Source: Flavobacterium sp. A45 (GTDB lineage: Bacteria; Bacteroidota; Bacteroidia; Flavobacteriales; Flavobacteriaceae). From it: a DNA stretch of 64,000 nt. The position numbers were made by a program, and so were the translations under genes. Numbering within the stretch: position 1 is the stretch's first letter; the number at the start of each line of letters is the position of its first letter. The DNA is taken from contig NZ_MUNX01000059.1 in assembly GCF_002001005.1 (NCBI RefSeq), forward strand, positions 118,484 through 182,483, given 5' to 3'. Of the stretch, positions 47,977 through 64,000 are shown in pieces. The notes beneath the pieces were generated by a model. That model ran no database searches and was not told the origin of the DNA. It worked only from the letters and a program-made list of their open reading frames with translations.

Positions 47977-47995
47977 TATAAAAATAATAAGTATT

Positions 47996-49474: not shown

Positions 49475-49501
49475 CAATTTCCTCTTTAATAACTTGTGTA
49501 T

Positions 49502-49543
49502 GCTGCTCCCAAAAAATTGCCATTTTGGGAGCAGCTTTTTTTT
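49502..49543 (+). terminator. Rho-independent terminator after narK
   Basis: GCTGCTCCCAAAA (49502-49514) pairs with TTTTGGGAGCAGC (49523-49535) and is followed by eight T. It separates narK from the binding-protein gene. The rest of the 369-bp spacer is AT-rich and ends in the control boxes described at 49769. Confidence 0.9.
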
Positions 49544-49768
49544 ATAAATAAAGAGAAAGTCTTGTAACGTTTTTTCTGTAAACTAAAAAGTAATATTTCC
49601 CTCTAAAAACAATAAGAACCTACTAATCAGCACTATTTTATAAAATTATCAAACTTTAACCTACTAAAAAATGGTGCTAAAAATGATAATTCTACTTTTT
49701 AAAAACGCTTTTCTAAGATTTAAATATAAAGAACTCCCCTTAATTTTAATTTCCTCAAAAATTACCAA

Positions 49769-49810
49769 ATACGTAATTTAAATTCAACAAAATAAGTACT
49801 ATTACGTATA
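49769..49810 (+). promoter_or_regulatory. NarL-like boxes upstream of the solute-binding protein gene
   Basis: ATACGTAAT (49769), ATAAGTA (49792-49798; TACTTAT on the minus strand, an exact TACYYMT heptamer) and TTACGTAT (49802-49809) precede the ATG at 49844. No exact TAnnTTTG element lies between them and the start. Confidence 0.5.
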
Positions 49811-49843
49811 TTTACTAAAATATTAACAGCCAAACCAATAACC

Positions 49844-51232
49844 ATGAAAAAACTAACCTTACAATTAACAGTGATACTATTAATAGCATTCACTGTTACC
49901 AGCTTTAAAAGTGAACTACCTGGTAATCCCATTTTGAAAAAAAGAAGTATAGGACCACCGAAAACCAAAAAATTAAATTTAGAAAAACCAAACGTAACTA
50001 TTGGATTTATAAAGCTAACCGATATGGCACCTCTTGCCATTGCTAAGTTTTTAGGCTATTTTGACGATGAAGGACTTTCTGTAACCTTAGAAGCTCAAGC
50101 CAATTGGAGAGATATTTTAGATAAAGTGGTTGACAATCAGCTCGACGGAGCTCAGATGTTAGCTGGACAACCGATAGCGGCAGCCGTGGGATGTGGCAGA
50201 CAAGCTCAATTGGTAACCACCTATTCTATGGATTTAAATGGAAATGCCATAACAGTATCTAATTCCATCTGGTCCAAAATGAAAGACAGCATTGCTGAGG
50301 AATATGGCAGACCTGTACATCCTATTCCGTCTTATGCTTTGAAACCGGCCCTAAATTTTTATAAAAAAATGAACAAGCCCTTTACATTTGGTATTGTTGC
50401 GGCCTATTCAACCCACAATTATCAATTGCGATACTGGCTGGCTGCCGGCGGTATAAATCCCGGTTTTTACAACAATAACAACATTCAAGGAAGCAAAGGA
50501 AATACAGATGCAGATGTTTTACTGAATGTTACGGCTCCGCCACAAATGCCCCAAACTTTAAGAGCTGGAACGATCGACGGCTATTGCGTAGGAGAGCCAT
50601 GGAATCAGCAGGCAGTTGAAGAAACCATCGGTGTTCCTATAGTGACCAGCAGGGAGATTTGGAAAAATCATCCTGAAAAAGTATTTGTGATGACTAAGGA
50701 ATTTGTTTCCAAATACCCAAATACCTCTATTGCCATTACAAAGGCATTAATAAAAGCGGGCAAATGGCTGGATAATCCCGAAAACCGAAAAGAAGCCACT
50801 CGGATCTTGTCAAAATCTGCTTATGTGGATGGGGACAAACGCGTAATCGACAATTCGATGCTTGGCACTTTTGAATTTGAAAAAGGAGATGTGCGCTCTA
50901 TACCCGATTTTAATGTTTTCTTCAAATACAACGCTACTTATCCTTACTATTCGGATGGAATTTGGTTTATGACCCAAATGAAACGTTGGGGACAAATCAC
51001 AGAATCAAAACCTAACGATTGGTATTTGAGCAAAATTAAAGAAGTTTACAAACCGGATATTTGGATCCGTGCCGCAAATCTATTGTTGGAAGAAGGATTT
51101 ATCTCGGAAACAGACATCCCTTACACTGATGGATTCAAGCCGGCAACAACCGATTTTATTGACAATATGTCTTACGATGGAAAAAAACCTGTCGAATATA
51201 TCAATGGATTTAAGATTGGTTTAAAAAATTAA
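49844..51232 (+). CDS. NrtA/CmpA-like nitrate-binding protein without cognate permease
   Basis: 462 residues with an N-terminal signal or anchor (LTLQLTVILLIAFTVTSF). The body follows the NrtA/NasF pattern: VTIGFIKLTDMAPLAIAKFLGYF, GAQMLAGQPIAAAVG, LRAGTIDGYCVGEPWNQQAV. This periplasmic fold binds nitrate or bicarbonate. No permease or ATPase gene of that ABC system is in the window, and NarK is encoded nearby, so it may act as a nitrate-scavenging or sensing partner. The substrate is inferred from the neighbours. Confidence 0.85.
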   Translation: MKKLTLQLTVILLIAFTVTSFKSELPGNPILKKRSIGPPKTKKLNLEKPNVTIGFIKLTDMAPLAIAKFLGYFDDEGLSVTLEAQANWRDILDKVVDNQLDGAQMLAGQPIAAAVGCGRQAQLVTTYSMDLNGNAITVSNSIWSKMKDSIAEEYGRPVHPIPSYALKPALNFYKKMNKPFTFGIVAAYSTHNYQLRYWLAAGGINPGFYNNNNIQGSKGNTDADVLLNVTAPPQMPQTLRAGTIDGYCVGEPWNQQAVEETIGVPIVTSREIWKNHPEKVFVMTKEFVSKYPNTSIAITKALIKAGKWLDNPENRKEATRILSKSAYVDGDKRVIDNSMLGTFEFEKGDVRSIPDFNVFFKYNATYPYYSDGIWFMTQMKRWGQITESKPNDWYLSKIKEVYKPDIWIRAANLLLEEGFISETDIPYTDGFKPATTDFIDNMSYDGKKPVEYINGFKIGLKN

Positions 51233-51302
51233 CCTTTAATTACATTCCATACTTCGTGCCCCAAATACGAAGCAAGTCAATACCACAAAAAAATTATTCA
51301 CT

Positions 51303-51343
51303 AAAAGCTTGATGTATTTTCTAGATACATCAAGCTTTTTTTT
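51303..51343 (+). terminator. Rho-independent terminator after the binding-protein gene
   Basis: AAAAGCTTGATGTAT (51303-51317) and ATACATCAAGCTTTT (51325-51339) form a 15-bp stem followed by more T. Confidence 0.9.
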
Positions 51344-51397
51344 AGTCAAATTCTAAAATTATTACTTCTAATAAATACGAAAATGTGTTATTAGACC

Positions 51398-51510
51398 GCG
51401 TGAGTGATGGCAGTGGAGCTCTTTTTTTAATCCCGTTTTTTTTTGCGGGATTAAAAAAAAGCGGGAACGTACAGCACGACCCGAAGTTTTTCACGGAGGG
51501 TCACGCCCGA
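51398..51510 (+). repeat. Two-hairpin dispersed element, copy 3
   Basis: Starts GCGTGAGTGATGGCAGTGG, first hairpin TTTTTTTAATCCCG/CGGGATTAAAAAAA, then GCGGGAACGTACAGCACGAC, second hairpin GACCC...GGGTC and the end TCACGCCC. It keeps the order of features seen at 33699 and 40709. It occupies the centre of the 550-bp spacer 51233-51782; the last 100 bp are the nasA control region. Confidence 0.75.
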
Positions 51511-51687
51511 ATTCAGAATGCAGGTTTCAGATTGCAGATAACAGGTTAAAAATTAAAAACACTATTTTTTGTGGTAATGAAAAATACTGCTTAAAACAGC
51601 GTCCAATTCTTCTAATAATTCAAAATATTGAGCCTATTTTTAGCATTCTAATTATATTGAATGTAAACATAAAATAAAATTAACTTT

Positions 51688-51721
51688 ATACGTATTAATA
51701 CTTATTTATTACTTATTTTTG
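51688..51721 (+). promoter_or_regulatory. nasA promoter with two exact NarL-type heptamers
   Basis: ATACGTATTAATACTTAT (51688-51705) and a second TACTTAT (51710-51716); both TACTTAT copies match TACYYMT exactly. TATTTTTG at 51714-51721 matches the -7 consensus and predicts a start about 51728, leaving a leader of about 55 nt before the ATG at 51783. Confidence 0.65.
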
Positions 51722-51782
51722 TTTGTGTAATATCATCTATACTGATTCTTACAAAGCTACTTTATAAACGAAGACATACATA

Positions 51783-54700
51783 ATGCAAAATACAGAAATC
51801 AAAACTACGTGTTCCTATTGTGGAGTAGGATGCGGAATTATTGTAAAAAATGATTCTAAAAATGGAGTGACGGTTACAGGCGACAAAGATCATCCCGTAA
51901 ACAGGGGAATGCTTTGTTCCAAAGGAATGAACTTACATTATGTGGTTAATGATACTTCGGACAGGATTCTCTACCCCGAAATGAGGTGGAGTAAATCACA
52001 TCCGAAAGAAAGAGTTAGCTGGGATGCCGCTTTGGATCGTGCAGCTGCAGTTTTTTCTTCAATTATAAAAAAACATGGGCCAGACAGCGTTGGATTTTAT
52101 ATTTCCGGACAATGCTTGACCGAAGAATATTACTTGGTTAACAAACTAGTAAAAGGTTTTCTAAAAACCAATAACATAGACACCAATTCTAGACTTTGCA
52201 TGAGTTCGGCAGTGGCGGGTTACAAAAAAACTTTTGGTGAAGACTCCGTTCCAATCGCTTATGCTGATATAGAACTTGCCGATACTTTCTTGATAACTGG
52301 AGCCAATCCTGCTTTTTGCCACCCGATTCTGTTCAGACGAATTGAACAACACAAAGAGAAAAACCCTAAAACAAAAATCATCGTAGTCGATCCGAGACGT
52401 ACCGACTCGGCCATCGCTGCCAATTTACACTTACAGATACTTCCAGGAACGGATATTGTTTTATACCATGCCATAGGGAGACGCTTAATTGAAAAAGGAT
52501 ATGTTGATTCGGATTTTGTAAAAAATCATACCGAAAACTACCAACAGTACAAAGAAATGGTATGCAACAGTTCCTATGAAAAAGCATCTAAATTATGTGG
52601 TGTTTCCGTAAGTGACATACACTTGGCTGCCGATATTATTGGCAAAGCCAAAGGTTTTATATCCATGTGGGCTATGGGGCTGAACCAAAGTGCCATTGGG
52701 GTTGATAAAAACACAGCTTTGCTTAATCTTTCATTGATAACCGGGCAGGTTGGAAAGCCAGGTTCTGGACCTTTCTCTTTGACAGGACAACCCAATGCAA
52801 TGGGAGGGCGTGAAGTGGGTGGAATGGCTAATTTATTGGCTGTCCACAAAGAATTAAACAATCCTATACACCGCAAGGAAGTAGCCGATTTTTGGGGAGT
52901 GGAATCCATTTCTGAAAAACCGGGATTAACCGCAACCGAAATGTTTGACGCCTTGGAATCGGGCAAAATGAAAGCCATTTGGATTATTTGCACCAATCCA
53001 ATGGTGAGTTTACCAGATGCCAGAAGAGTTGAAAAAGCATTGCAAAACGCAAAATTTGTTGTCGTTCAAGACATCTCCCATAATGCCGATACCGCCAAGT
53101 TTGCCGATTTATTATTGCCTGCCGCTGGATGGTTGGAAAAAGAAGGAACAATGACCAACTCTGAGCGACGCATTTCTTATTTGCCAAAAGGTATTAATGC
53201 CCCGGGTGAAGCTTTATCGGATGTAGAAATCTTGCTGAACTTTGCCAAAAAAATGAAATTCTCTGGTTTCAACTTCAACAATACCGAAGCCGTTTACAAA
53301 GAATACTGCCTAATGACCAAAGGCACCAATATTGATATTTCCTATTTAAATTATTCCAGACTAAAAAACGAAGGTACTTTCCAATGGCCCGTTCCGGATT
53401 ACGGACACCCAGGAACTCCCCGCTTATTCGCCGATAAAAAGTTCTTTACGCCTTCGCAAAAAGCGATTTTCAATATTCCAACGAGTATTGAAAACACATC
53501 TCCACAGCCTTCAGAAAAATATCCATTTATATTGACTACGGGACGAATTCGCGATCAATGGCACACAATGACCAAAACCGGTAAAGTGTCCCGATTAATG
53601 ACGCACACCCCAAGTCCAGTTCTCGAAATCAACCCTATAGATGCTTACAAGTCTGAAATCAAAAATGGCGATATTGTTGTCGTGAGCAGTAAAAACGGTG
53701 AAGTTCGGGTGAAAGCAAAAGTGACTGACACTATCAAAGAAGGTGTTCTATTTTTGCCGATGCACTGGGGGAAACAATTGGACAACGACTTGAACAGAAC
53801 CAACAATCTGACCAACACAATTGTAGATCCAATATCCAAAGAGCCTGATTTTAAATACACCACGGTAGCGGTAACAAAATACGTGAAACCGTTTCAAAAA
53901 ATTGCCGTAGTTGGCGCCGGAGCTGCTGCTTTCCGTTTTATTCAAAATTACAGGGAAATCAATACTACAGATGAAATCATTGTTTTCTCCAATGAGGAAA
54001 ACCCATTCTACAACCGCGTTCTGTTGCCAGAGTATGTGACTGGAGAATTTACTTGGGAAAGCCTTTTGAAAATAAAAAGCGATGGTATGAGCCAATTGAA
54101 TATCACGATGAAATCGGGTGTGGCAATTGAAAACGTAAGCACTACCGATAAAACCATAACCGACTGCAAAGGCACTGTTCATCAATTTGACATGTTGATA
54201 ATGGCAACCGGAAGTCGACCTTTCATCCCCGAAAATGCCCAATTGCATCTTCCGGGACGTTTTACCATCAGAAAGAAGACCGATGCCGACAAACTAAAAA
54301 ATTATCTGGACGAAACTAATTTACCAGCTGAAGAGCAACACGTAGTGATTGTGGGTGGTGGATTACTGGGACTTGAACTCGCAGCTGCCCTTAAACATAA
54401 AAAAGTAAAAATAACGATTATACAAAGGGCTTCCCGATTGATGGAACGTCAATTGGACAGAATCTCGAGTAAATTATTGGCCGAAGAAGTGCAGCAAAGA
54501 GACATTCAAATTTATTTTGATAATGAAGTAAGCACCGTATTTGAAACCGATAATGCAAACGAATTGGAAATCGCCCTGAAAAGTGGTCGAATCATTACCG
54601 CCAATGCCATTGTTTACACCATTGGAACGATTCCAAACATAGAATTGGCCAAGGAAACAGGACTGGCTTGCGGACGTGGCGTAAAAGTCAACCAGTACTT

Positions 54701-55298
54701 GCAAACCTCCCATCCCGATGTATTTGCTATTGGTGAAATAGCCGAATTCAACAATATGTTATTCGGAATCACCTCAGCTGCCGAAGAGCAAGCCGATGTA
54801 TTAGCCAACTTCATTGCCGGTGACATTAGCAGTTTTTACAAAGGATCGGTACTGATGAATATCCTGAAATTGGAAGACATCAATTTGTGTTCTATTGGTG
54901 AAATCGAAGTTCCGGAAAACGATGATTCCTATGAAGAAATTGTTTTTGCCGACTTAGGAAAACGCTATTATAAAAAATGTATCGTCAAGAACGATTTGCT
55001 CATTGGAGCCATCCTAATGGGAGACAAAAATGAGTTTGCCGAATTCAAAACAATGATTGAAAGCAAAATCGAATTGGCCGACAAACGAAACACTTTATTA
55101 AGAGGAAGTGGATCTGAAGCCAAACCGGTACTAGGAAAACTCGTTTGCTCTTGCAGTCAGGTAGGAAGCGGAAATATTGAAGAATGTATAAAAAGTGGCG
55201 TTACTAATTTTACCGAACTTTGTAAAACCACCGGAGCGGGGCTCGGTTGCGGAAGCTGCAAAACGGAGGTGAAGGAGATATTGGCGAAGGTAAAATAG
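51783..55298 (+). CDS. nasA: Single-chain assimilatory nitrate reductase: molybdopterin subunit fused to flavoprotein diaphorase and BFD domain
   Basis: 1171 residues. Residues 1-700 are a NasA-type bis-MGD reductase: the N-terminal cluster motif CSYCGVGCG...MLCSKG, then the Mo-cofactor regions (GQPNAMGGREVGGMANLL, TTGRIRDQWHTMTKTGK). Residues 700-1100 are a NirB/NasC-like FAD-NAD(P)H domain (IAVVGAGAAAFRF; VVIVGGGLLGLELAA). From about 1115 a [2Fe-2S] BFD domain has CSCSQVGSG and CGSCKTEV. Electrons can thus pass from NAD(P)H to Mo in one polypeptide, where other bacteria use separate NasC and NasA proteins. Confidence 0.93.
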   Translation: MQNTEIKTTCSYCGVGCGIIVKNDSKNGVTVTGDKDHPVNRGMLCSKGMNLHYVVNDTSDRILYPEMRWSKSHPKERVSWDAALDRAAAVFSSIIKKHGPDSVGFYISGQCLTEEYYLVNKLVKGFLKTNNIDTNSRLCMSSAVAGYKKTFGEDSVPIAYADIELADTFLITGANPAFCHPILFRRIEQHKEKNPKTKIIVVDPRRTDSAIAANLHLQILPGTDIVLYHAIGRRLIEKGYVDSDFVKNHTENYQQYKEMVCNSSYEKASKLCGVSVSDIHLAADIIGKAKGFISMWAMGLNQSAIGVDKNTALLNLSLITGQVGKPGSGPFSLTGQPNAMGGREVGGMANLLAVHKELNNPIHRKEVADFWGVESISEKPGLTATEMFDALESGKMKAIWIICTNPMVSLPDARRVEKALQNAKFVVVQDISHNADTAKFADLLLPAAGWLEKEGTMTNSERRISYLPKGINAPGEALSDVEILLNFAKKMKFSGFNFNNTEAVYKEYCLMTKGTNIDISYLNYSRLKNEGTFQWPVPDYGHPGTPRLFADKKFFTPSQKAIFNIPTSIENTSPQPSEKYPFILTTGRIRDQWHTMTKTGKVSRLMTHTPSPVLEINPIDAYKSEIKNGDIVVVSSKNGEVRVKAKVTDTIKEGVLFLPMHWGKQLDNDLNRTNNLTNTIVDPISKEPDFKYTTVAVTKYVKPFQKIAVVGAGAAAFRFIQNYREINTTDEIIVFSNEENPFYNRVLLPEYVTGEFTWESLLKIKSDGMSQLNITMKSGVAIENVSTTDKTITDCKGTVHQFDMLIMATGSRPFIPENAQLHLPGRFTIRKKTDADKLKNYLDETNLPAEEQHVVIVGGGLLGLELAAALKHKKVKITIIQRASRLMERQLDRISSKLLAEEVQQRDIQIYFDNEVSTVFETDNANELEIALKSGRIITANAIVYTIGTIPNIELAKETGLACGRGVKVNQYLQTSHPDVFAIGEIAEFNNMLFGITSAAEEQADVLANFIAGDISSFYKGSVLMNILKLEDINLCSIGEIEVPENDDSYEEIVFADLGKRYYKKCIVKNDLLIGAILMGDKNEFAEFKTMIESKIELADKRNTLLRGSGSEAKPVLGKLVCSCSQVGSGNIEECIKSGVTNFTELCKTTGAGLGCGSCKTEVKEILAKVK

Positions 55299-55462
55299 GG
55301 TTTGAAAAGGTTTAATGGTTTAAAAGTTTAAAATTGTTTAATACTCTAATCGTGCTAAAAAGCATCTTCAAAACCACAAACCTTAAACAACCTTAAACAA
55401 TTAAACAATTTTAAACCTTAAGAGTTTAAACCTTTAAACAACCAACAATAAAAACTAAAAAA
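55299..55462. repeat. TTTAAA-rich imperfect palindrome
   Basis: GGTTTAATGGTTTAAAAGTT and AATTGTTTAA on the left, TTAAACAATTAAACAATTTT and AAACCTTAAGAGTTTAAACC on the right, around CTAATCGTGCTAAAAAGCAT. The arms are inverted. A related TTTAAA motif is at 27220-27250. No promoter consensus seen; the next gene probably belongs to the nasA transcript. Confidence 0.5.
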
Positions 55463-56890
55463 ATGGAATTAACAAGACTCATAGTAAAAGGCGGGGTTAT
55501 ATCTCCGGGGGAATTACGAGAAATTGTAAATATGGCATTGGAACAAGGTCTTGAAGCCCTCTCTTTTGGTTCCAGACAAGACATTATATTCCCAAAAGGA
55601 TTCAAAAATAACACTCCCGAAAAAATCGGGAAGCATCATTTTGTTTTGCCAAACGAAAAAAGCGGCAACAACATCGTTTCCTCCTACGTATCGACCGATA
55701 TTTTCAGGAATACGCCTTGGCTTACCGGAAATAAATTCCTTTACATATTGGAGCAATTTAAGGAACAGCCCAAACTCAAAGTCAACATAGCCGATCCAAA
55801 ACAGCAGCTCGTTCCGCTATTCACGGGGCACATCAACTTTATAGCTTCGCACCACGAAGATTATTGGTTTCTGTATGTGCGTTTGCCAAAATGGGACAAA
55901 ATGGAACTTTTCCCTGTATTGATCTACAGTTGGGACATTGGAAAAATATATTACGAAATAGAAAAAATACTCCAGGAAGAACCCGATACTGTTGATATGA
56001 TTTTCCAACTCATTAGCGATTTGGACACCAATAATAGAACCATCGACCAGCCATTAAACATTCCGTTTTACCCCTTCCCCTATTACGAAGGAATGAACAG
56101 GCTCGGAATAGATCAATACTGGCTTGGACTTTACTGGCGAAACAACCTGTACGATTTGCAGTTTCTAAAAGAAATGTGTGATTTGTGTTTCGACTGCAAA
56201 ATCGGAAAAATATGCATCACTCCTTGGAAATCCTTCATCGTGAAAGGAATTCCCAAAGACCGCAAACTCGATTGGGAAAAATTCTTGGGCAAAAAAGGCA
56301 TCAACGTTCGCCATTCCCTTTTGGAACTCAACTGGCATTTACCCGTAGCTACGGAATGGGCCTTGAATCTCAAAACTTTTTTGGTGCGCACCCTCGACCA
56401 ATTCGATATCAGCACCTACGGACTTACCTTCGGACTATCCGATTACAATAGAGACGGTCATTATTTCACATCGGTGGTCATCGAAAAAAACGAATCGCCA
56501 AAAGACCTCGAATCCATCAAAATCCGAGATACTTTCAATATTTTGTATGCCAAAAATTTTGACCCCAACACCAAGGAATACATCGTTCATGCGCAAGATG
56601 TCGACAAACTCGAATTGCCCAATATCTTAATCGAATTGAGTAAAAAATACTTCGAAGAATTGGGCAACAGTGTACTCGAATTTCAAAATACCAGTACCAA
56701 AAAGGAAACCAAAGCCCAGGACATCCACCAATGCCCAGAATGCTTAACGGTATATAATTCGGACTACGGCGATGTCATACAGGATATCGAAAAAGGCACA
56801 CTCTTCCAAGATCTTCCCGAAGACTACTGCTGTTCGTTATGCGAAGCCCCAAAAAGCAGCTTCATCCCATTAACAGAAACTACGGTTTAA
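55463..56890 (+). CDS. Siroheme-reductase-like protein with four-Cys motif and C-terminal rubredoxin domain
   Basis: 475 residues. The start, MELTRLIVKGGVISPGELRE, and the internal fold resemble the ferredoxin-like half-domains of nitrite/sulfite reductases. CDLCFDCKIGKIC (about 237-249) gives four Cys that could bind iron or an Fe-S cluster. From about 420 a rubredoxin domain has CPECLTVYNSDYGD and CCSLCEAPK. It likely carries electrons for nitrate or nitrite reduction in the cytosol. It follows nasA; no true siroheme motif can be seen, so catalysis is unlikely. Confidence 0.75.
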   Translation: MELTRLIVKGGVISPGELREIVNMALEQGLEALSFGSRQDIIFPKGFKNNTPEKIGKHHFVLPNEKSGNNIVSSYVSTDIFRNTPWLTGNKFLYILEQFKEQPKLKVNIADPKQQLVPLFTGHINFIASHHEDYWFLYVRLPKWDKMELFPVLIYSWDIGKIYYEIEKILQEEPDTVDMIFQLISDLDTNNRTIDQPLNIPFYPFPYYEGMNRLGIDQYWLGLYWRNNLYDLQFLKEMCDLCFDCKIGKICITPWKSFIVKGIPKDRKLDWEKFLGKKGINVRHSLLELNWHLPVATEWALNLKTFLVRTLDQFDISTYGLTFGLSDYNRDGHYFTSVVIEKNESPKDLESIKIRDTFNILYAKNFDPNTKEYIVHAQDVDKLELPNILIELSKKYFEELGNSVLEFQNTSTKKETKAQDIHQCPECLTVYNSDYGDVIQDIEKGTLFQDLPEDYCCSLCEAPKSSFIPLTETTV

Positions 56891-56901
56891 TCAAAATTAT
56901 T

Positions 56902-57020
56902 TGGGCGAGCCCTCGTTGAGTAAAGGGGCTTGCCTATTGTAGCGCTTATACAGCCCCTTTACTCAACAAGGTCAGGCTGTCCGCGTTACTTCGGTAACTT
57001 GCTTCCATCCTTCTCGCGGG
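56902..57020 (-). repeat. Two-hairpin dispersed element, reverse copy
   Basis: On the minus strand: GCGAGAAGGATGGAAGCAAG, short hairpin GTTACCGAAGTAAC, GCGGACAGCCTGACC, long stem TTGTTGAGTAAAGGGGC/GCCCCTTTACTCAACGA, end GGGCTCGCCC. The longest second stem of all copies here. It lies within the 502-bp spacer before the recombinase gene and may terminate the nitrate operon. Confidence 0.75.
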
Positions 57021-57164
57021 CTTCCTGTTATTACAAGAACTCAATTCAATTATTTAGAGTATTTCCTTTTTCGGATAATGGCAAAAAAGCAAAATATCTC
57101 CCTTTAGCCCCGATTACTTCACTATACTTTTATTTTCATAGGAGTTCAGTGAACTTCGTTTAAA

Positions 57165-57220
57165 GCGAAAATCCTTATAAGCCGGGGTTCGGCTTATAAG
57201 ATTGTAGCGGAAAGCGGGAT
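57165..57220 (+). repeat. Short relic of the dispersed element
   Basis: AAATCCTTATAAGCCGGGGT TCGGCTTATAAGATTGTAGC GGAAAGCGGGATAAT contains the hairpin CTTATAAGCC/GGCTTATAAG and the AGCGGAAAGCGGGA tail common to such elements in flavobacteria. The rest of 57021-57359 is AT-rich without a gene. Confidence 0.5.
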
Positions 57221-57359
57221 AATATTACCTAAAAAGCCTAATGTTTCTGCTCCTAAAAATTAATAATCAAACTCAGGTTAACACTTTTCTATTTTCTCTT
57301 CCCTTTATTCTCTAAGCTGCAATCTGAATTCTGCAATCTTTTCCTTATCTTTATCATTC

Positions 57360-57392
57360 AACTAAACGCCTTTTACTTTAACTATACGCCTT
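57360..57392 (+). promoter_or_regulatory. Direct repeat immediately before the recombinase ATG
   Basis: AACTAAACGCCTT (57360-57372) and AACTATACGCCTT (57380-57392) differ at one position and are spaced 20 bp start to start, i.e. two helical turns. The second copy touches the ATG. The arrangement suggests an operator, perhaps for the recombinase itself. Confidence 0.45.
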
Positions 57393-58436
57393 ATGAACTG
57401 GACAGCCAAACTCATCAAACGCGGTGGCGAGAGCCGCATCGCCATTTATTTTGAAAAAAACCAAGATTGGATCGATCGCATTAAGCAACAAGAGGGATCC
57501 AGATGGAGTCAAACATTAGGCGTTTGGCATTTGCCAGACACCTTTGAAAACCGAATGTTATTTCAAATTGTCGAAGCACCAATCAAACTTCCTTCGGCTG
57601 AGGGAATCGAACAAATAGAAAAATTCAAACACTGGTTATTGTCCAGGCGCTACAGCGATAGCACCATAACTACCTATACCGAAGCATTAAAATGGTTCCT
57701 GACATTTTACAATGAAAAACCAGTAGCCGAAATTGACAATGACGATGTCATACGGTACAATAACGAATACATCTTAAATAATAATTTGTCAGGTTCCTTT
57801 CAAAATCAGATTGTCAACGCCATAAAATTATTTTTCTCTACAATACGAGAAACCAAAATAGAGCTAGACAAAATTCACCGACCGAAGCGAGAAAAATTAC
57901 TACCTAATGTGTTGAGCAAAGAAGAAGTAAAACTGATATTGAATGCTCACGGCAACCTCAAACACAAAACGATGTTGAGCTTAATTTATGCATGCGGATT
58001 GCGCCGAAGCGAACTCTTGCATTTGAAGCCTGCCGATATTGAATCTAAAAGAGGAGTAGTAGTCATCAGACAAGGTAAGGGCAAGAAAGACCGAATTGCA
58101 CCATTATCGGATAAAATATTGGGGATGTTACGGGATTATTATGTAGCAAACAAACCCCTCACCTATTTATTTGAAGGCAAAATTCCTGGTGAGCCTTATT
58201 CTGAATACAGCTTACAAAGCGTTTTGAAACAAGCACTGTATAAAGTAGGAATTACCAAACCTGTCACGCTACATTGGCTGCGACACAGTTTTGCAACACA
58301 CTTACTGGAAAGTGGCACCGATTTGCGCTATATTCAAGAGTTATTGGGACATAACAGCAGTAAAACAACCGAAATTTACACTCATGTTAGTACGAAAAGT
58401 ATTCAACAAATAAAAAGTCCCTTTGACGATTTGTAA
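57393..58436 (+). CDS. XerC/D-like tyrosine recombinase with extra N-terminal domain, candidate cassette integrase
   Basis: 347 residues. Catalytic residues are complete: Arg in ACGLRRSELLHL, Lys in GKGKKDR, His-Arg in LHWLRHSFATHL, His in LLGHNSSKTTE, Tyr in EIYTHVS. A SAM-like core-binding domain spans about 72-160. Residues 1-60 are an added domain with IAIYFEKNQDWIDRI and SRWSQTLGVWHLP. The 35-40-residue insert that IntI enzymes carry between the Lys and the HxxR is missing (only about 62 residues separate them), so it is not a classical IntI. It lies directly upstream of the array, in the same orientation. Confidence 0.9.
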   Translation: MNWTAKLIKRGGESRIAIYFEKNQDWIDRIKQQEGSRWSQTLGVWHLPDTFENRMLFQIVEAPIKLPSAEGIEQIEKFKHWLLSRRYSDSTITTYTEALKWFLTFYNEKPVAEIDNDDVIRYNNEYILNNNLSGSFQNQIVNAIKLFFSTIRETKIELDKIHRPKREKLLPNVLSKEEVKLILNAHGNLKHKTMLSLIYACGLRRSELLHLKPADIESKRGVVVIRQGKGKKDRIAPLSDKILGMLRDYYVANKPLTYLFEGKIPGEPYSEYSLQSVLKQALYKVGITKPVTLHWLRHSFATHLLESGTDLRYIQELLGHNSSKTTEIYTHVSTKSIQQIKSPFDDL

Positions 58437-58455
58437 GTATTAATATGTATATTTG
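58422..58455 (+). promoter_or_regulatory. Candidate cassette promoter (Pc analogue)
   Basis: TTTG at 58422-58425, inside the recombinase 3' end, and TATATTTG at 58448-58455, an exact TAnnTTTG, are separated by 22 bp as in Bacteroidota promoters. Transcription would start near 58462 and run through the palindromic region into the first cassette. Confidence 0.55.
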
Positions 58456-58467
58456 GTTTTAAGAAAA

Positions 58468-58550
58468 GTGTGTGATTTATCACACTTACACACCCGATTT
58501 TGGGTGGATATGTGTGACGGAGTCACACATATATACTAGTTGTGGGCAAT
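58468..58550. other. attI-like region: nested palindrome ending in the first GTT junction
   Basis: Four copies of a TGTGTGA-type half-site: TGTGTGA (58469-58475), TCACAC (58480-58485), TGTGTGAC (58511-58518), GTCACACA (58522-58529), around CACCC...GGGTG (58491-58506). They can form either two side hairpins or one long hairpin of about 60 nt. GTT at 58539-58541 starts the first cassette. No inner arm like that of the downstream sites is present, as expected for an integration site distinct from attC. Confidence 0.65.
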
Positions 58551-58573
58551 ATTCACTCAAAAACAGATAAAAT

Positions 58574-59206
58574 ATGAACATTAGTTTAGAACAGAATAAA
58601 GCAGTAAATGATATTGTTGAACTTATTGCTTTGAAATTAGGAAATGAAAAAAGAGAATTAAATATAGTAGACGCTATTTCTACTTGTGCTAGACTAGCAG
58701 GAAGTTTGTTGTTTAGGTCTTTTGATTTTCAAATTAAAGACGCGAAACCTGGAAGTGTAATGTTGTCCGAAAATGCAAATATAAAAGGACCTGAATTAGT
58801 AAATATTACCCATACTGTGTTACAGAATTTCGGGATAACTATTGATAATCAAAAAATGAATAGCAGTTCGGGAGAAGAAACGAAAATTAATTTTCTAGAT
58901 GCAATTGATTTAGTTCAAAGCGAAGCATTAGAAATTATGAAAAAGTATAAATTATCATATGAACAATTAGCTCATTCAACTGCTATTGCAACTGCGTTTA
59001 TTATACAACAAAGTCCGAACATACCCGCAGAAACAGGTTTTGGCAAAGCAATTTATCATTATATTGAAGGTTCAAAAACTTATCCCCCAGATTTCATTAA
59101 ACCAACAATTATCAATGAAACAATAAAACAAACAGAAGTGGATTACAAAACAAATGAAATCGAATACAAAGAAAATAGTAGAAAACCTTGGTGGAAAATA
59201 TGGTAA
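58574..59206 (+). CDS. Cassette 1: hypothetical protein
   Basis: 210 residues, soluble, no signal peptide. The N-terminal half looks helical (SLEQNKAVNDIVELIALKLG), with SAIATAFIIQQSPNIPAETG-like hydrophobic segment near 145-165 and a Lys/Glu-rich C-terminus ending WWKIW. I recognise no family. It is the only gene of the first cassette, starting 35 nt after the GTT junction and ending 15 nt before the AAC of site 1. Confidence 0.75.
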   Translation: MNISLEQNKAVNDIVELIALKLGNEKRELNIVDAISTCARLAGSLLFRSFDFQIKDAKPGSVMLSENANIKGPELVNITHTVLQNFGITIDNQKMNSSSGEETKINFLDAIDLVQSEALEIMKKYKLSYEQLAHSTAIATAFIIQQSPNIPAETGFGKAIYHYIEGSKTYPPDFIKPTIINETIKQTEVDYKTNEIEYKENSRKPWWKIW

Positions 59207-59220
59207 AAAATACTGCCCAC

Positions 59221-59345
59221 AACAGCCACTACAACGGATTTTGGCATTTGGCTTAATGGGAAAATGGTCTTGTATTTGGGATGATTTGGCAAATCCGAAT
59301 ATTGGTCTTAATTTAATCCCAAACCCGCTGTAGTGCCAGAACGTT
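59221..59345 (+). repeat. attC-like site 1
   Basis: 125 bp from AAC to GTT. The upstream flank ATACTGCCCACAAC is complementary to the start of cassette 1, GTTGTGGGCAATAT (58539), except for one A-C at position 11. Inner arms begin CACTACAACGG and end CCGCTGTAGTG. A small hairpin GATTTGGCAAATC is central (59283-59295). The downstream GTTAGTGGCA begins cassette 2. Confidence 0.88.
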
Positions 59346-59401
59346 AGTGGCAAGCTATGACGAAATAAATAGCAATTAGGAAATTTCTAGAAATTAAATT
59401 C

Positions 59402-59860
59402 ATGCAAAACAATATTATCCGTAAAACATTTGGTGTAATATCAATTACCTTTTTTTTACTTTTTTTTACATTTTTTATATTTTCAATTGTTAGTGGTCAT
59501 ATGATTAGAAAGGATATAGAGTTAAATGGAATAAACTCAATTGGTAAATATAGTTCACATAGAAGTTGGGGAAAAGGAGAAAATAATTATTTTAGCTTTA
59601 TTGTTGAAGGAGTGAGATATAAAGGAATTGTCGAAGAAGCACCAGAAGATTCTATTAAAAACATTGGAAAATTCTATAGGATTCGCTATTCTAAAAGATT
59701 TAAAGGAAACTTAAACGCTTTTTTTGACCAGGAAGTAAAAGATACTATTGAAATCGTAAACGCTGGATTTTCAGATTTTGATATTTTAAGCCAAGACACA
59801 ATCGAAGGGAAAGAAAGATCATTAAAAAAAGAATTCTTTATAATATTAGGAATTCATTGA
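59402..59860 (+). CDS. Cassette 2: membrane-anchored hypothetical protein
   Basis: 152 residues. One N-terminal membrane helix (about 10-32, ISITFFLLFFTFFIFSIV) and an extracytoplasmic or cytosolic part with beta-rich NYFSFIVEGVRYKGIVEEAP and FYRIRYSKRFKGN. It resembles small DUF3592-like single-pass proteins, but I cannot assign it firmly. It is the sole gene of its cassette and reads with the array. Confidence 0.75.
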   Translation: MQNNIIRKTFGVISITFFLLFFTFFIFSIVSGHMIRKDIELNGINSIGKYSSHRSWGKGENNYFSFIVEGVRYKGIVEEAPEDSIKNIGKFYRIRYSKRFKGNLNAFFDQEVKDTIEIVNAGFSDFDILSQDTIEGKERSLKKEFFIILGIH

Positions 59861-59882
59861 GTTATCTAGAAAGCCTGCCACT

Positions 59883-60007
59883 AACAGCCACTACAACGGA
59901 TTTGGGCATTTGGCTTAATAGAAAGTTGGTCTTGTATTTGGAATGATTTGGCAAATCCGAAAATAGGGCTTAATTTAATCCCAAACCCGTTGTAGTGCCA
60001 AGACGTT
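59883..60007 (+). repeat. attC-like site 2
   Basis: 125 bp AAC to GTT. Upstream flank GCCTGCCACTAAC is the inverted complement of GTTAGTGGCAAGC (59343), with the single A-C at position 11. Right arm has CCGTTGTAGTG, so arm position 8 is paired here, while the A-C at arm position 12 is kept. The downstream GTTGGCGGTCA begins cassette 3. Confidence 0.88.
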
Positions 60008-60476
60008 GGCGGTCAGTTGACGAGAAACGAGGAGAAAACCGGATTTAAAGATTTGGCTTTTTAAATGCAGAAACTGAAAAAGCAAGCGTTAAAATTGGGT
60101 CGAAATTGGTAAAACTATTTTTTTTTGATGTTTAAAATTGGAAAGCGGAAAACCGAAATTTAAATATTGGAATCCGACAATTGAAACTTGAAAATCTGAG
60201 TTTCTAATTGGAGCTTGAAAAGCAGAAACGTGAATATCGGAGTTTCGAATTGGAATGTAAATATTCGAGATTTTAAGCCGAAAAAGCAAAACTGAAACTT
60301 AAATTCTCGGGTTTTCTAATTGAAGCGAAACAATCGTTTTGATTGTGAAATTGAAACGAAAAAAAGGGAATGAAATTTAGCCGAGATTTGGGCAAGAATT
60401 GGGTTTTAAATCTGCCAAGATAAGGCTGAGAATTGATTAATAATTAGGAATATCAGCTAGAAACAACCGAACCGCC
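60008..60476 (+). other. Cassette 3: non-coding, purine-rich
   Basis: About 470 bp without a credible plus-strand gene. The plus strand is rich in degenerate units such as GAAACTTGAAAA, AAGCAGAAACGTGAA and GGAAAACCGAAA. The only ORF (minus strand, 60089-60289) is a low-complexity translation of this repeat. Cassettes 5 and 7 have the same composition. The ends are ACCGCCAAC and GTTGGCGGT, so it is a complete cassette. Confidence 0.7.
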
Positions 60477-60601
60477 AACAGCCACTACAACGGATTTGGG
60501 CATTTGGCTTAATGGAAAGATGGTTTTGTATTTGGGATGATTTGGCAAATCCGAAAATAGGGCTTAATTTAGTCCCAAACCCGCTGTAGTGCCAAGACGT
60601 T
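60477..60601 (+). repeat. attC-like site 3 (reference copy)
   Basis: 125 bp. Left arm 60483-60500 (CACTACAACGGATTTGGG) and right arm 60574-60591 (CCCAAACCCGCTGTAGTG) pair over 18 positions with A-C mismatches at arm positions 8 and 12. Spacers between AAC and left arm (3 nt) and between right arm and GTT (7 nt) are unequal. The upstream flank ACCGCCAAC matches the start of cassette 3. Confidence 0.9.
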
Positions 60602-60642
60602 AGTGGCAAGCTGTCAAAATCCTGCTAAAAAACAAAACAAAC

Positions 60643-61035
60643 ATGGATTCAGAACAACAAATATTTTGCGGAAATTGTAATCAGAAACTTCAAATTTTAT
60701 CAGAACCATGCGAATCTTGTGGCTCTGTAAAGAAGAATATTGTATTAGAATTAGTTGATAAATTTGAATTCGAATTAAAAGATTGTCTTGATGGAAAAGT
60801 AATCAATCCATCTTTGAGAAGCAAGGACAAGATGCGTGAGAAATTTACTTTTGGAGCATCGCAATCAGCAAATGGTGACTGGGCAGAAAAAACTCGAATA
60901 ATTAATCGTGATAAGGATTACTATTTTGAAGAAGTAAAAAATTCAAAAGGAGAAATTATACATCACAGTGAAGAAAAATTAAGTGATCATAAAGGTCATG
61001 GGACAGACAAATTCAACAATCCGACCAGCCACTAA
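60643..61035 (+). CDS. Cassette 4, gene a: zinc-ribbon protein
   Basis: 130 residues. Cys9, Cys12, Cys23 and Cys26 (FCGNCNQK and PCESCGS) form a zinc-ribbon. The rest is charged, with SRSKDKMREKFTFGASQS-like and EEKLSDHKGHGTDK segments. No enzymatic domain. First of two genes in the cassette; the stop lies at AGCCACTAA, which resembles the AAC-side flank of the sites. Confidence 0.75.
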   Translation: MDSEQQIFCGNCNQKLQILSEPCESCGSVKKNIVLELVDKFEFELKDCLDGKVINPSLRSKDKMREKFTFGASQSANGDWAEKTRIINRDKDYYFEEVKNSKGEIIHHSEEKLSDHKGHGTDKFNNPTSH

Positions 61036-61081
61036 GCATCCCATAAAATTATAAATCGAAAGAAAAACAGAATTATAAAAT

Positions 61082-61432
61082 ATGAATCTAATAGACAAAT
61101 ATAAATATCGCTTTCGACCAGAGTATAATTCAGAAAATTTACTAATTGAAATTTTTAGCGGTGTTAAAAATGAAAATTTTTTATCTGACTTATTAAATTC
61201 GATAGTTGAGATAAACCCAAAAATTGATGAAATTGCTGACCTTTGGATGAACGATGAATTTATATTTGAAATCCAGTCAGACATTGGAAATTTTTCACTT
61301 TCAAAAGATATTTGGGATTTAGCTTTTATAATATCCGAAAATAATCAAGAATGTGTGAATAGAATAAATTCAATTCTATTAAACGATAAAAGGTTTGAAA
61401 AAGTAGAAGTGAATTTTGACGATTATAAATAG
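61082..61432 (+). CDS. Cassette 4, gene b: hypothetical protein
   Basis: 116 residues, acidic, cytosolic, with helical pattern NLLIEIFSGVKNENFLSDLL and a beta-rich end RFEKVEVNFDDYK. Not recognised. It follows gene a after 46 nt. A similar pattern occurs in immunity-like small proteins, but there is no toxin gene beside it. Confidence 0.7.
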   Translation: MNLIDKYKYRFRPEYNSENLLIEIFSGVKNENFLSDLLNSIVEINPKIDEIADLWMNDEFIFEIQSDIGNFSLSKDIWDLAFIISENNQECVNRINSILLNDKRFEKVEVNFDDYK

Positions 61433-61448
61433 AATAATGCCAGCCACT

Positions 61449-61572
61449 AACAGCCACTACAACGGATTTGGGCATTTGGTTTAATGGAAAAACGGTCTTG
61501 TATTTGGATGATTTGGCAAATCCGAAAATAGGGCTTAATTTAGTCCCAAACCCGCTGTAGTGCCAGAACGTT
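61449..61572 (+). repeat. attC-like site 4
   Basis: 124 bp. Upstream flank GCCACTAAC is the inverted complement of GTTAGTGGC at 60599, with a mismatch at position 10 and A-C at 11. The centre lacks one G relative to other copies (TTTGGATGATTTGG). The downstream GTTATGGTGTA begins cassette 5. Confidence 0.87.
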
Positions 61573-61910
61573 ATGGTGTATAGCTGTTGACGATCAACAG
61601 TCGATTTTAATCAGAAGCTTTAGTTAGAATAATACATAACGAAACAGAAACCGAGCCGGCCGAAATCTGAACCGAAATCTGAACCGAAATCTGAGACTTA
61701 ATTGTTGCGGACAAAGAAACGTGAACGGCTTTATGGAAAACCGAAAGCAGATTTTTTTTGTCGATTTTCTTTGAGGTTTAACTGAAGTTTGAAGTTTAAA
61801 AACGGAAACTATTTGGAACGGAAATCGAAAAGCAGAAAACTTTGGGTAATGGGAATCGATAATTGGAATATCAAATCTTTCGTGCTCAGCATCGTCAAGC
61901 TACACACCAT
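61573..61910 (+). other. Cassette 5: non-coding, purine-rich
   Basis: About 340 bp without a convincing gene. It includes CCGAAATCTGAA repeated three times in tandem (61658-61698) and units like GAAAAGCAGAAAAC and GGAAAACCGAAAGC. The 84-residue plus ORF from 61789 runs on through site 5 and is not credible. The ends match each other over 15 of 16 nt. Confidence 0.7.
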
Positions 61911-62035
61911 AACAGCCACTACAACGGATTTGGGCAATTGGCTTAATTTGAAAAATGGTTTTGTATTTGGGATGTTTAAGCAAATCCGAAGATTTGGCTT
62001 CCTTACTCCCAAACCCACTGTAGTGCCAGAACGTT
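61911..62035 (+). repeat. attC-like site 5
   Basis: 125 bp. Upstream flank AGCTACACACCATAAC is complementary to GTTATGGTGTATAGCT (61570) at 15 of 16 positions, the exception being A-C at position 11. The right arm has CCCACTGTAGTG, adding a C-A opposition at arm position 9. The centre (GATGTTTAAGCAAATCC) departs from the consensus. Confidence 0.87.
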
Positions 62036-62130
62036 GGCAGTAATATTGACACCGAACCAGAAAAAAGAATTAGCTGCTTACCAAAAATACTCATATAGCT
62101 TTGAAGTAATATTAGAAAATCACATAAGAA

Positions 62131-62532
62131 ATGAAAACGATAATTAAAAGATTTCTATTAGCCTTTTTGCTTGTATTTCTAGTAAGTTGTGACCCAGCGC
62201 ACGATATTGTATTTACGAATAATACAAATTCAGTAGCTAAGGTTAAATTCAAATTAAACCCGAAATTTAAAAACTATCGTTTAAGCGAATCAATAACTGG
62301 AGATTCAATTGTGTTTAATTTAAAACCAAAGGATACTTCAAATTTATATTTTGGAATTGGAGTTTGGGATGACAAAGAAATAGACCAATTATGCAATTCC
62401 ATAACTAGCTTAGAAATTGAGAATAATGACTTAAAAACGGTCTATAAATCGAAAAAAACAATAAAAAATATCCTTGAAAATAATCAAGAGGGATTTTGGT
62501 GGAAAACGAGGATAGCAATTGATATTGAATAA
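62131..62532 (+). CDS. Cassette 6, gene a: lipoprotein
   Basis: 133 residues. Signal peptide MKTIIKRFLLAFLLVFLVSC ends in a lipobox with Cys20, followed by DPAHD. The mature part is beta-rich (FTNNTNSVAKVKFKLNPK, SIVFNLKPKDTSNLYFG). An envelope lipoprotein of unknown function. It is followed after 4 nt by gene b. Confidence 0.78.
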   Translation: MKTIIKRFLLAFLLVFLVSCDPAHDIVFTNNTNSVAKVKFKLNPKFKNYRLSESITGDSIVFNLKPKDTSNLYFGIGVWDDKEIDQLCNSITSLEIENNDLKTVYKSKKTIKNILENNQEGFWWKTRIAIDIE

Positions 62533-62536
62533 AAAA

Positions 62537-63007
62537 ATGAGAAATGAAAATCCGAATTTAAAACTTTTAAGTATTTCTGTAATTTATTCTTTATCTACAA
62601 TTTTTATGTGGACTCTGTCTAAAAATGACGAAAGTGCTTCTCTAGGTTATTTATTTATGCTTGTAATCATTTGGGCTATTTTGACAATCGTAACGGGAAT
62701 CATAATTTGGAAAGACAAAATAAAAATAAAAAATTGGAATATATTAATTCTTATATTTTGTACACCTGTTCCTTTTATATTTTTTCTTTCGGCAACTTCC
62801 AAAGAGCAAGTTAGAGGACCTTGGGAATACAATAAAAACAATCGTCGCATAAGAGAAATCACATACGAAAACCGAAAAGAATATTCATCAAGCGTTGATA
62901 AAACTTCAGAAGAATATCCTATTCCTGCAAATGATAAATATCACCTTGACAGTATTGTTTATTATGGGGAAAATTCGAAAATTATTGAAACTAAACATTT
63001 CAAGTAA
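62537..63007 (+). CDS. Cassette 6, gene b: membrane protein
   Basis: 156 residues starting at ATG 62537; the upstream TTG at 62519 would overlap gene a. Three hydrophobic segments (LLSISVIYSLSTIFMW, LFMLVIIWAILTIVTGII, ILILIFCTPVPFIFFL) are followed by a charged C-terminal tail. Not recognised. It ends 18 nt before the AAC of site 6. With gene a it may form a small envelope module. Confidence 0.7.
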   Translation: MRNENPNLKLLSISVIYSLSTIFMWTLSKNDESASLGYLFMLVIIWAILTIVTGIIIWKDKIKIKNWNILILIFCTPVPFIFFLSATSKEQVRGPWEYNKNNRRIREITYENRKEYSSSVDKTSEEYPIPANDKYHLDSIVYYGENSKIIETKHFK

Positions 63008-63025
63008 ATAGAAAATACTACTGCC

Positions 63026-63149
63026 AACACACACTACAAGCAATTTGGGTTTTAGGCTTAATTTGAAGTTGGTTTTGTATTTGGAAGATTTGGCAAATCC
63101 GAATAATGGGCTTAATTTAATCCCAAACTGCTTGTAGCGCGAGAACGTT
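63026..63149 (+). repeat. attC-like site 6 (covarying arms)
   Basis: 124 bp. Arms 63032-63049 (CACTACAAGCAATTTGGG) and 63122-63139 (CCCAAACTGCTTGTAGCG) differ from sites 1-5 on both sides in a compensated way; A-C remains at arm position 12. Upstream flank AATACTACTGCCAAC matches GTTGGCAGTAATATT (62033) at 14 of 15 positions, A-C at 11. Confidence 0.87.
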
Positions 63150-63521
63150 ACTGGAGACTTGTGCCGAAATTACGCAGACGAATCCAATCTGAAAATAACG
63201 TTCTGTAATCGCAGGAAAATCTGAAAGCAAAAGCGTGAAAGTTGGAACTTCTGCAGAAACGTGAAAAGCAGAAACGTAAATATCAAAACTTGCCAACAGA
63301 AACTTGAAAAGCAGAAGCGTGAAAGTTGGAACTTGCCAACAGAAATGTGAAAAGCAGAAACGTGAAAATTGCAACTCCCCTACTGTAACGTAAAAGCGGA
63401 AAAGTGAGAACTTTAAATTTTTAGCCGAAAACCGAAACTTTGAGGAGCGGACGGAAAACGAAAAACAGAAACGTAAAAGTTTTGGTTTATAATCGCAATT
63501 TCGACAAAACAAGCCTCCAGT
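63150..63521 (+). other. Cassette 7: non-coding, purine-rich tandem units
   Basis: About 370 bp with units AAAAGCAGAAACGTGAAA and GTTGGAACTTGCCAACAGAA present several times (63255-63365). The 143-residue minus-strand ORF over 63117-63548 spans both flanking sites and translates the repeat into low-complexity Phe/Ser-rich protein, so I do not accept it. The ends are GTTACTGGAGACTTGT and ACAAGCCTCCAGTAAC, complementary at 15 of 16. Confidence 0.7.
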
Positions 63522-63646
63522 AACAGCTGCTACAAGTGATTTGGGCAATTGGCTTAATGGAGAAATTGGTTTGTATTTGTGAGAATTTGGTTAAGCCGAA
63601 AAATAACGCTAATTTAGTCCCAAACCACTTGTAGCACCAAGACGTT
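63522..63646 (+). repeat. attC-like site 7 (covarying arms)
   Basis: 125 bp. Arms 63528-63545 (TGCTACAAGTGATTTGGG) and 63619-63636 (CCCAAACCACTTGTAGCA) are again compensated relative to sites 1-6, with the A-C at arm position 12 as the only mismatch. The inner hairpin also changes (GAATTTGGTTAAGCC). The downstream GTTAGGC begins cassette 8. Confidence 0.87.
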
Positions 63647-63688
63647 AGGCGATATTAAAACTCAGAATCTTAAAACAAACCAATTTTA

Positions 63689-64000
63689 ATGGAAAAGAAA
63701 CTCATTCTATCAATATTATTAATATTATCTATTTCTATTTTCTCTCAAAACAAAAACTTAAAACAAGAGAACGTTAAAATCAATAATGAGCATTTTTTAG
63801 AAATCAATAATCAAAAAAAATAGAAAATTTACAAAAATTAATAAATCTTAAATCAGATTCACTTAATAAAGAAATATTATATTATAAAGTAAAAGAAGAT
63901 TTTTACTCTACTGCTCTTGCTGACCAGGGAAACAGATTTACTATTATAGTTTCTGGAATACTTGCTTTATTTTCAATAATTACCTTTGGAGCATTTAAAT
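63689..64000 (+). CDS. Cassette 8: signal-peptide protein with a -1 frameshift at A8 (partial)
   Basis: ATG at 63689 opens a frame with a signal peptide (MEKKLILSILLILSISIFS) that ends at TAG (63821-63823) after 44 codons, just after C followed by eight A. In the -1 frame the protein continues from 63820 (IENLQKLINLKSDSLNKEIL) to the window edge and contains a membrane helix (FTIIVSGILALFSIITFGAF). CAA AAA AAA has the A_AAA_AAA slippery phase, so programmed -1 shifting, a mutation, or a homopolymer error are all possible. Confidence 0.6.

Follow-up and report, generated by a model that had tools for sequence, protein, structure and literature searches.

What kind of element occupies the right end of the window, a 64,000-nucleotide (nt) stretch of the Flavobacterium sp. 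A45 genome (G000; contig C81, positions 118484 to 182483), in which a conserved chromosomal block is followed by a tyrosine recombinase gene, a palindromic stretch and seven sites bounding eight cassettes? Our sequence analysis argues strongly for a cassette-capturing platform built like an integron, with an insert-less recombinase, an attI about 100 base pairs (bp) behind its gene, and cassettes that each end in a 124-125-bp attC-like site. The system works like an integron, yet it lacks two defining features of one, the IntI-specific additional domain (I2) and the canonical extrahelical bases of the sites. It probably represents a second type of gene-capturing integron that has been overlooked. 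The features of the locus are listed below; ORF denotes open reading frame, aa denotes amino acids, the arm rule is set out further on, and the right edge of the window is the end of contig C81.

57393..58436, + strand: tyrosine recombinase gene, 347 aa (ORF; profile and fold searches); N-terminal extension of ~70 residues, core-binding and catalytic domains
58437..58541, + strand: attI-like site, palindromic, ending ATATATACTAG|TT (the cassette 1 start pairs with the site 1 arm)
58540..59343, + strand: cassette 1, bounds by the arm rule; ORF 58574-59206, 210 aa, family not found
59221..59345, + strand: attC-like site 1 (AAC ... CGTT), 125 bp, by arm rule and covariance model, as are sites 2 to 7
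59344..60005, + strand: cassette 2, bounds by the arm rule; ORF 59402-59860, 152 aa, family not found
59883..60007, + strand: attC-like site 2, 125 bp
60006..60599, + strand: cassette 3, bounds by the arm rule; clear forward gene absent
60477..60601, + strand: attC-like site 3, 125 bp
60600..61570, + strand: cassette 4; ORFs 60643-61035 (weak zinc-ribbon match, below cut-off) and 61082-61432
61449..61572, + strand: attC-like site 4, 124 bp
61571..62033, + strand: cassette 5; clear forward gene absent; relatives in two other species' arrays
61911..62035, + strand: attC-like site 5, 125 bp
62034..63147, + strand: cassette 6; ORFs 62131-62532 (start lipoprotein-like by eye) and 62537-63007 (membrane-like by eye)
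63026..63149, + strand: attC-like site 6, 124 bp
63148..63644, + strand: cassette 7; clear forward gene absent
63522..63646, + strand: attC-like site 7, 125 bp
63645..64000, + strand: cassette 8, incomplete at the contig end

This layout agrees with most of the original prediction, which had been made from the letters of the window. The recombinase gene was confirmed at its full length, as were the seven sites of 124-125 bp, all in the same orientation, and eight cassettes start in the window where eight or more had been claimed. The seven sites scored 92-104 bits with a covariance model (R1) trained on 59 sites, four of these seven among them, and the next match in the 64 kilobases (kb) had 11.4 bits (expectation value, E, 2.8). 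The palindromic attI-like region was present as well: 58440-58570 gave folding z values of -4.45 and -4.30 for the two strands, and its end coincides with the crossover that the arms of cassette 1 predict, placed G|TT between 58539 and 58540. Genes between the sites, also claimed, were confirmed for cassettes 1, 2, 4 and 6 out of the seven that are complete, whereas cassettes 3, 5 and 7 showed none that was clear in the forward direction.

The bases flanking the sites delimit the cassettes. What follows GTT in one site is the reverse complement of what precedes AAC in the next (GTT followed by agtggcaagc in site 1, gcctgccact before AAC in site 2), and all six neighboring pairs in the window fit this arm rule; site 1 is paired in the same manner with the first bases of cassette 1, next to the recombinase gene. 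This rule, which the original prediction did not mention, is the decisive observation. Among 24 Flavobacterium genomes, 331 of 390 neighbors matched at 6 of 6 bases and 27 at 5 of 6 (358 of 390 combined), compared with 2.65% and 6.2%, respectively, of random site pairs (about 9% together), and the two sides of one same site matched at 6 of 6 in 6 of 133. By these comparisons, it is the two ends of each cassette, and not the two ends of one site, that are complementary to one another, as if each cassette had once been a circle closed at its own site and had been inserted by a cut in GTT. Circularization of such a cassette would reconstitute its site.

A first scan left 47 neighbors unmatched. 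In 22 of them the gap contained the one site that both arms called for (5 in 100,000 in the control), and 18 gaps held one or both arms but no single site between; that scan was blind to extra bases, and the gaps it left revealed sites carrying them. In 339 pairs matching at 6 of 6, the eighth place was always unpaired on the top strand (C.A in 273, G.A in 64 and A.A in 2). Several sites in four other stretches (L091, L080, L246 and L252) had one fixed left arm (e.g., GGTTTAGTTC 5' of AAC) that was unpaired with the previous detected site.

The attI was located by the arms only, in the 25 recombinase loci that have a site no more than 5 kb away. Its GTT junction adjoined the recombinase gene, at no more than 207 bp, in 20 of these loci including the window (95-108 bp in 15 loci and 154-207 bp in 5). 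The sequence 5' of the junction was similar in most Flavobacterium loci (ATATA..A.AG or ATATAAACAAG before TT) and that on the 3' side differed. Comparison with the nearest species (G167) showed the same boundary: window positions 41349-58544 aligned collinearly with it in pieces of 82-93% identity, ending at CACACATATATACTAG|TTGTG, and beyond attI only the sites and relatives of the gene-poor cassettes matched, elsewhere in the G167 array. Recombinase and cassettes pointed the same way in 23 of 25 loci. In two loci from other families (L342 and L352), the array lay 5' of the gene and pointed away from it, like classical integrons.

Cassettes were also found exchanged between genomes. The set comprised 23 genomes, one per species in the sample, with 330 neighboring pairs and 287 cassettes with matched arms, among which 78 cassette pairs shared >75% identity across 85% or more of their length. 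We examined 18 of the 23 pairs with at least 94% identity, 5 between species and 13 within one genome. The downstream DNA was unrelated in 18 of 18 (59-68% in global alignment, which is background) and the upstream DNA in 17 (56-65%), the eighteenth lying at a contig end. The cassettes shared between species were of 1235 bp at 99.84% (G129 and G198), 1445 bp at 98.1% (G094 and G030), about 500 bp at 96% (G167 and G030) and at 94% (G094 and G167), and 2.2 kb at 95% (G184 and G030). Because the attC preceding a shared cassette was itself 60-93% alike, the left cassette end is sharp only where those attC differ. The cassette gain, loss and shuffling for which the original prediction had proposed to look were seen between species; close relatives have different arrays, and comparison of genomes reveals rearranged junctions.

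Gene direction agreed with that of the array in 268 of the 279 cassettes whose ORFs reach 80 aa, and 88 of 367 cassettes had no such ORF. Among 75 cassette proteins of at least 100 aa scanned in three genomes (G000, G167 and G030), we found AbiU, HerA, type II and IIG restriction enzymes, and methylases, suggesting that the arrays may serve as a store of phage defense genes.

The mover of the cassettes would be the adjacent recombinase, which is not a canonical IntI. It reached 211 bits against the NCBI integron-integrase model (cut-off 265), the match falling into two pieces that leave profile positions 177-238 uncovered, and 217 bits against the archaeal XerA profile (cut-off 220). The integron profile also matches XerC/D of the same genome, so that a match below its cut-off carries little meaning. 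The distance from GKG to HxLRH was 65-66 residues in 59 of 59 family members (66 here) and 107 in all 30 canonical IntI compared, which were the top-scoring ones from other Bacteroidota; I2 was absent from every family member measured. Residues R204, K229, H294, R297, H320 and Y329, which we take to have catalytic roles, were invariant columns in an alignment of 29 relatives, and, judging from the divergence from the nearest species (0.028 nonsynonymous, dN, and 0.43 synonymous, dS), the gene is kept by purifying selection. The fold search barely covered the N-terminal 70 residues. Named relatives at 88-94% identity were from Flavobacterium, and several are called 'site-specific tyrosine recombinase/integron integrase' at NCBI. 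Divergent relatives at 40-44% identity in five genomes (G067, G082, G181, G127 and G145) lie in open frames of 589-614 codons, which possibly include an extra domain.

In an unrooted tree, the recombinase family (98/96) and IntI (100/100) formed separate clades, and the family, which was also apart from Xer, left out both Xer relatives of genome G000. The tree was built without IntI from other phyla, and its long branches meet. Since three clades in an unrooted tree cannot show which two are sisters, a reading of the family as the sister of IntI was withdrawn. The absence of a canonical IntI and the status of the system as a class of its own, both claimed in the original prediction, are supported by these comparisons. 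With regard to the integrase, which it described as XerC/D-like, profile scores, fold and tree favor neither Xer nor IntI as the closer relative.

The alternative that survives best is an ordinary integron whose IntI lost its insert secondarily, which we regard as unlikely. Its attI, attC and cassette logic would be those of integrons, the tree singles out no sister pair among the family, IntI and Xer, and, given the sparse IntI sampling and the meeting long branches, the loss could still have occurred on the stem of the family. Weighing on the other side, the family is not nested among the sampled IntI, and the insert is absent in every one of the 59 members measured.

The sites conserve a structure while their sequence varies. 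In 59 diverse sites read on the bottom strand, 93.2% of 1356 cells were paired (63.8% after shuffling), 370 cells were changed on both sides (116 after shuffling), and the covariation score was 0.716 (0.172 after shuffling); when the alignments were slid, only 33.7-47.5% were paired. The sites had been chosen by a scanner that demands pairing, which biases the paired percentage upward, but this demand alone is not enough to yield compensating changes. One column pair, unpaired in 36 of the 59 sites, is a trait of one site type. Another pair was G.U on the bottom strand (A.C when read on the top strand) in every one of the 59 aligned sites. This fixed A.C place recurred in all 130 sites of a first set that have spacers 2 and 3, in 375 of 388 in a larger set, and, among arm-confirmed sites, in 85 of 88 from other genera and 68 of 70 from the wider class. 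A count at a fixed offset outside the genus (13 of 72), which failed because the right spacer is mostly shorter in other genera, was superseded by the count per pair. The central unpaired spacer is lopsided, with 5 nt versus 1 nt in the structure used.

In canonical attC the extrahelical bases number two to three and are defined as lying on the R''-L'' (left) arm, according to the available part of PMC2727003. As a control, nine canonical sites beside a Bacteroidota IntI (L361) all had 1-3 extra left-arm bases, and one of them also showed two on the right arm. Among the 426 arm-confirmed sites from the 24 Flavobacterium genomes, extra bases were absent in 365, on the right arm in 60 and on the left arm in 1; the respective counts were 71, 16 and 1 of 88 in other genera, and 56, 11 and 3 of 70 in the class. 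None of the 21 arm-confirmed sites of genome G000 had an extra base on either arm, and in a gapped alignment of the seven window sites five were gap-free, one had a gap at a stem mismatch and one had a gap beyond the stem. The scanner allowed at most one extra base, so that sites with two would escape it. In one 20-kb stretch of another genome (L093, G073), 26 arm-confirmed sites each had one right-arm extra base.

Could these sites instead be recombined as double-stranded DNA, like Xer at dif, the palindrome serving some other purpose? We consider this improbable, and more so than insert loss, since the stem covaries as the sequence changes and the imperfect pairs favor pairing on the bottom strand only. 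Read on the top strand, they comprised 232 A.C and 72 G.T; one fixed place accounts for 130 of the former and another for 53 of the latter, and the remainder is 102 versus 19, in a scan that weighted A.C (0.7) slightly higher than G.T (0.5). In addition, the bottom strand folded better than the top, each compared with its own shuffles, in three of three sites folded both ways.

Under the integron-like reading, the recombinase probably cleaves a folded site on its bottom strand, the putative substrate as judged from folding energies and wobble bias, and cassettes would travel as circles and be moved in and out at G|TT. The counted sites all end in CGTT, so the presumed cut is placed within GTT and not pinned down to one position there. 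Classical strand choice depends on the extrahelical bases, two of which are bound by the integrase (PMC2727003 and PMC3053210, in the parts available). According to the same part of PMC2727003, joining by IntI1 of two attC that both lack these bases is abolished, and in their absence the central spacer can still set strand choice in the attI reaction. Where the sites lack the canonical bases and the recombinase lacks the helix for reading them, a consistent reading is that the strand is chosen by the lopsided spacer together with the fixed A.C (top) or G.T wobble (bottom) in the stem. A broader proposal, possible though tentative, is that of a class-wide second integron lineage in Bacteroidia whose recombinase never had I2, whose hairpin sites are free of the canonical extrahelical bases and whose strand is picked by spacer and wobble, a living intermediate in which folded-site capture preceded I2 and the extrahelical bases. 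We lowered our confidence in this ancestral proposal because the unrooted tree cannot show the family as sister of IntI.

The recombinase (E 1e-60) was found in 97 of 199 Flavobacterium genomes and at least one site (E 1e-3) in 176 of 199. Among the matches listed, the best 17 at most per genome, the median number of sites was 16 with the recombinase (92 of 97 genomes have one) and 5 without it (84 of 102; p 2e-7). The original prediction had directed the search to flavobacteria, where the sites do occur, but they range over the whole class: they were present in 206 of 249 genomes of the family (195 of 235 genera) and, at E 1e-6 with rough E-values, in 198 of 295 genomes and 115 of 155 genera of Bacteroidia. 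Recombinase relatives (E 1e-45) occurred in 155 of the 249 genomes of the family, some of them maybe outside the present system. Neighboring sites were seen in 15 of 20 loci from the family's other genera, with 38 of 56 neighbors matching at 5 of 6 bases or better; 16 of 20 class-wide loci, chosen for hits, had arm-confirmed sites (49 of 56 neighbors at 6 of 6), and 5 had a recombinase relative (36-57% identity) in the same stretch. Canonical IntI above the cut-off was found in 105 of 395 genomes of the phylum. Only one (G235) of the 108 genomes with an IntI match at E 1e-50 belongs to the same class, and none to the same genus, family or order. The site model matched seven places at 20.9-28.5 bits in one canonical-IntI stretch (L361), four at 18-50 bits in another (L364) and none in the other eight, so a few of the class-wide hits could be canonical.

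Several observations weigh against the integron-like reading. Thirty-two of the 390 neighboring pairs matched at fewer than 5 of 6 bases. In 5 of the 25 loci no attI was detected near the gene (a later site at 790-937 bp in three, none in two), although one of the five, G167, does show an attI when read by eye, and for 8 more recombinase rows, from 7 loci, the nearest 5 kb contained no site. The bottom-strand folding advantage is modest (z -3.57 versus -2.39, -1.74 versus 0.00 and -2.46 versus -1.28), and the 60 right-arm extra bases may leave a role for an extrahelical base. Finally, of the 84 genomes that keep sites without a close recombinase, 37 have at least 10; another recombinase could be acting there, or the sites could be remnants. 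We rechecked 12 site-rich genomes of this kind and found a relative at 38-41% identity in 4, one at 37% in 1, only a fragment in 2, and no match above the level of Xer relatives in the remaining 5. The original prediction had named sites occurring everywhere without the recombinase as evidence against it, and here the outcome was mixed: most recombinase-less genomes hold at least one site, but they hold fewer.

This persistence of sites is what one would expect if host XerC/XerD moved the cassettes and the neighboring recombinase were a bystander. We regard that explanation as very improbable, because the attI lies at a nearly fixed distance from the recombinase gene in 15 of 25 loci, site number rises with the presence of the recombinase, and selection maintains the gene. 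A further alternative, palindromic repeats dispersed by a transposase with genes trapped in between by chance, would suit the 41 full or partial matches to one site that reach outside the window over 11 contigs of genome G000, an extent that the original prediction did not note, but the outer bases of a repeat need not complement those of the next and one-directional genes would go unexplained, so this origin was set aside on the arm rule as having next to no probability.

Like integrons, e.g., the chromosomal integron of Vibrio cholerae (VchIntIA, PDB 2A3V), the present system has a recombinase gene adjoining attI, one-way cassettes, each closed by a palindromic site with AAC at one edge and GTT at the other, GTT junctions, a site structure kept while sequence varies, some cassettes with defense genes, and site clusters without an integrase. 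Unlike them, it lacks the insert between the two motifs (66 versus 107 residues), its sites mostly have no extrahelical base or one on the opposite arm, compared with 1-3 on the left arm in the nine canonical control sites, the unpaired spacer has 5 nt versus 1 nt in the structure used, and the recombinase mostly runs with its cassettes, although in contigs filed as viral it is mostly opposite. Likeness to XerA, XerC and XerD lies in the motif distance (66 versus 70-73), the fold and the XerA profile score; unlike these, the recombinase forms its own clade, stands beside cassette arrays and is additional to the two Xer relatives in the genome. Integration of CTXphi by host XerCD, as described in the available part of PMC4792948, likewise uses a folded single-strand site without extrahelical bases and recombinases without I2; the phage borrows host enzymes, whereas a dedicated recombinase lies beside the cassette array here.

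An integron-like subgroup of tyrosine recombinases in which the catalytic-domain insertion is not fully conserved has been reported (PMC8138268), so relatives of the present recombinase may belong to it; in the available part of that source, the insert-less members come without described sites or cassettes and the insertion is called essential for integron function. As far as the available parts of two surveys go, one selected genes by the IntI additional domain (PMC2426708) and the other used integrase and attC models, with complete Bacteroidetes integrons from one species, Salinibacter ruber, and others from Chlorobi and Ignavibacteriae (PMC9024848). Because such surveys rely on the IntI domain or models, a system failing the domain test was likely overlooked. 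No published description of these arrays was found in the titles and abstract starts of the integron literature on Bacteroidetes, Bacteroidota or flavobacteria, a search with preprints and most subscription journals outside its range. As far as we have seen, then, the proteins are already named at NCBI and the arrays are apparently without description as a system.

If this reading is true, a large group of environmental and host-associated bacteria owns a separate cassette exchange. The arrays would be a natural test case for attC-type recombination without I2 and canonical extrahelical bases. They would also bear, as a natural instance of attC-type sites without I2, on the origin of I2 and attC, the one without the other, which is called a chicken-egg paradox in the available part of PMC4792948.

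Some minor features of the locus and its relatives were noted as well. For the six other window proteins, NCBIfam gave no match and Pfam only matches below cut-off. Cassettes 3 and 7 have A/G-rich repeats in common; in cassette 5 an 84-codon forward frame starting at TTG extends into site 5, and cassette 7 holds a 143-codon TTG frame in reverse. Promoters or RNAs might be the cargo of the gene-poor cassettes 3, 5 and 7. An Rfam search of 56900-64000 assigned the sites to no family and found only a Flavo-1 RNA (RF01705; 57148-57225, 5' of the recombinase gene; 55 bits versus a gathering score of 42). Contigs filed as viral (L258-L328) were represented by the best 80 loci, at 38-48% identity, of 165 stretches that encode a recombinase relative; 41 of the 80 had at least two sites by the scanner, some contigs resemble mutual copies, and all but one of the arrays lay on the strand opposite to the recombinase. 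We draw no connection to phages from these contigs. Elsewhere in genome G000 (L036, positions 20000-39999 of contig C73), a C-terminal remnant of a recombinase (40 residues at 70% identity, at 23099) is followed by an array with an AbiU-like cassette.

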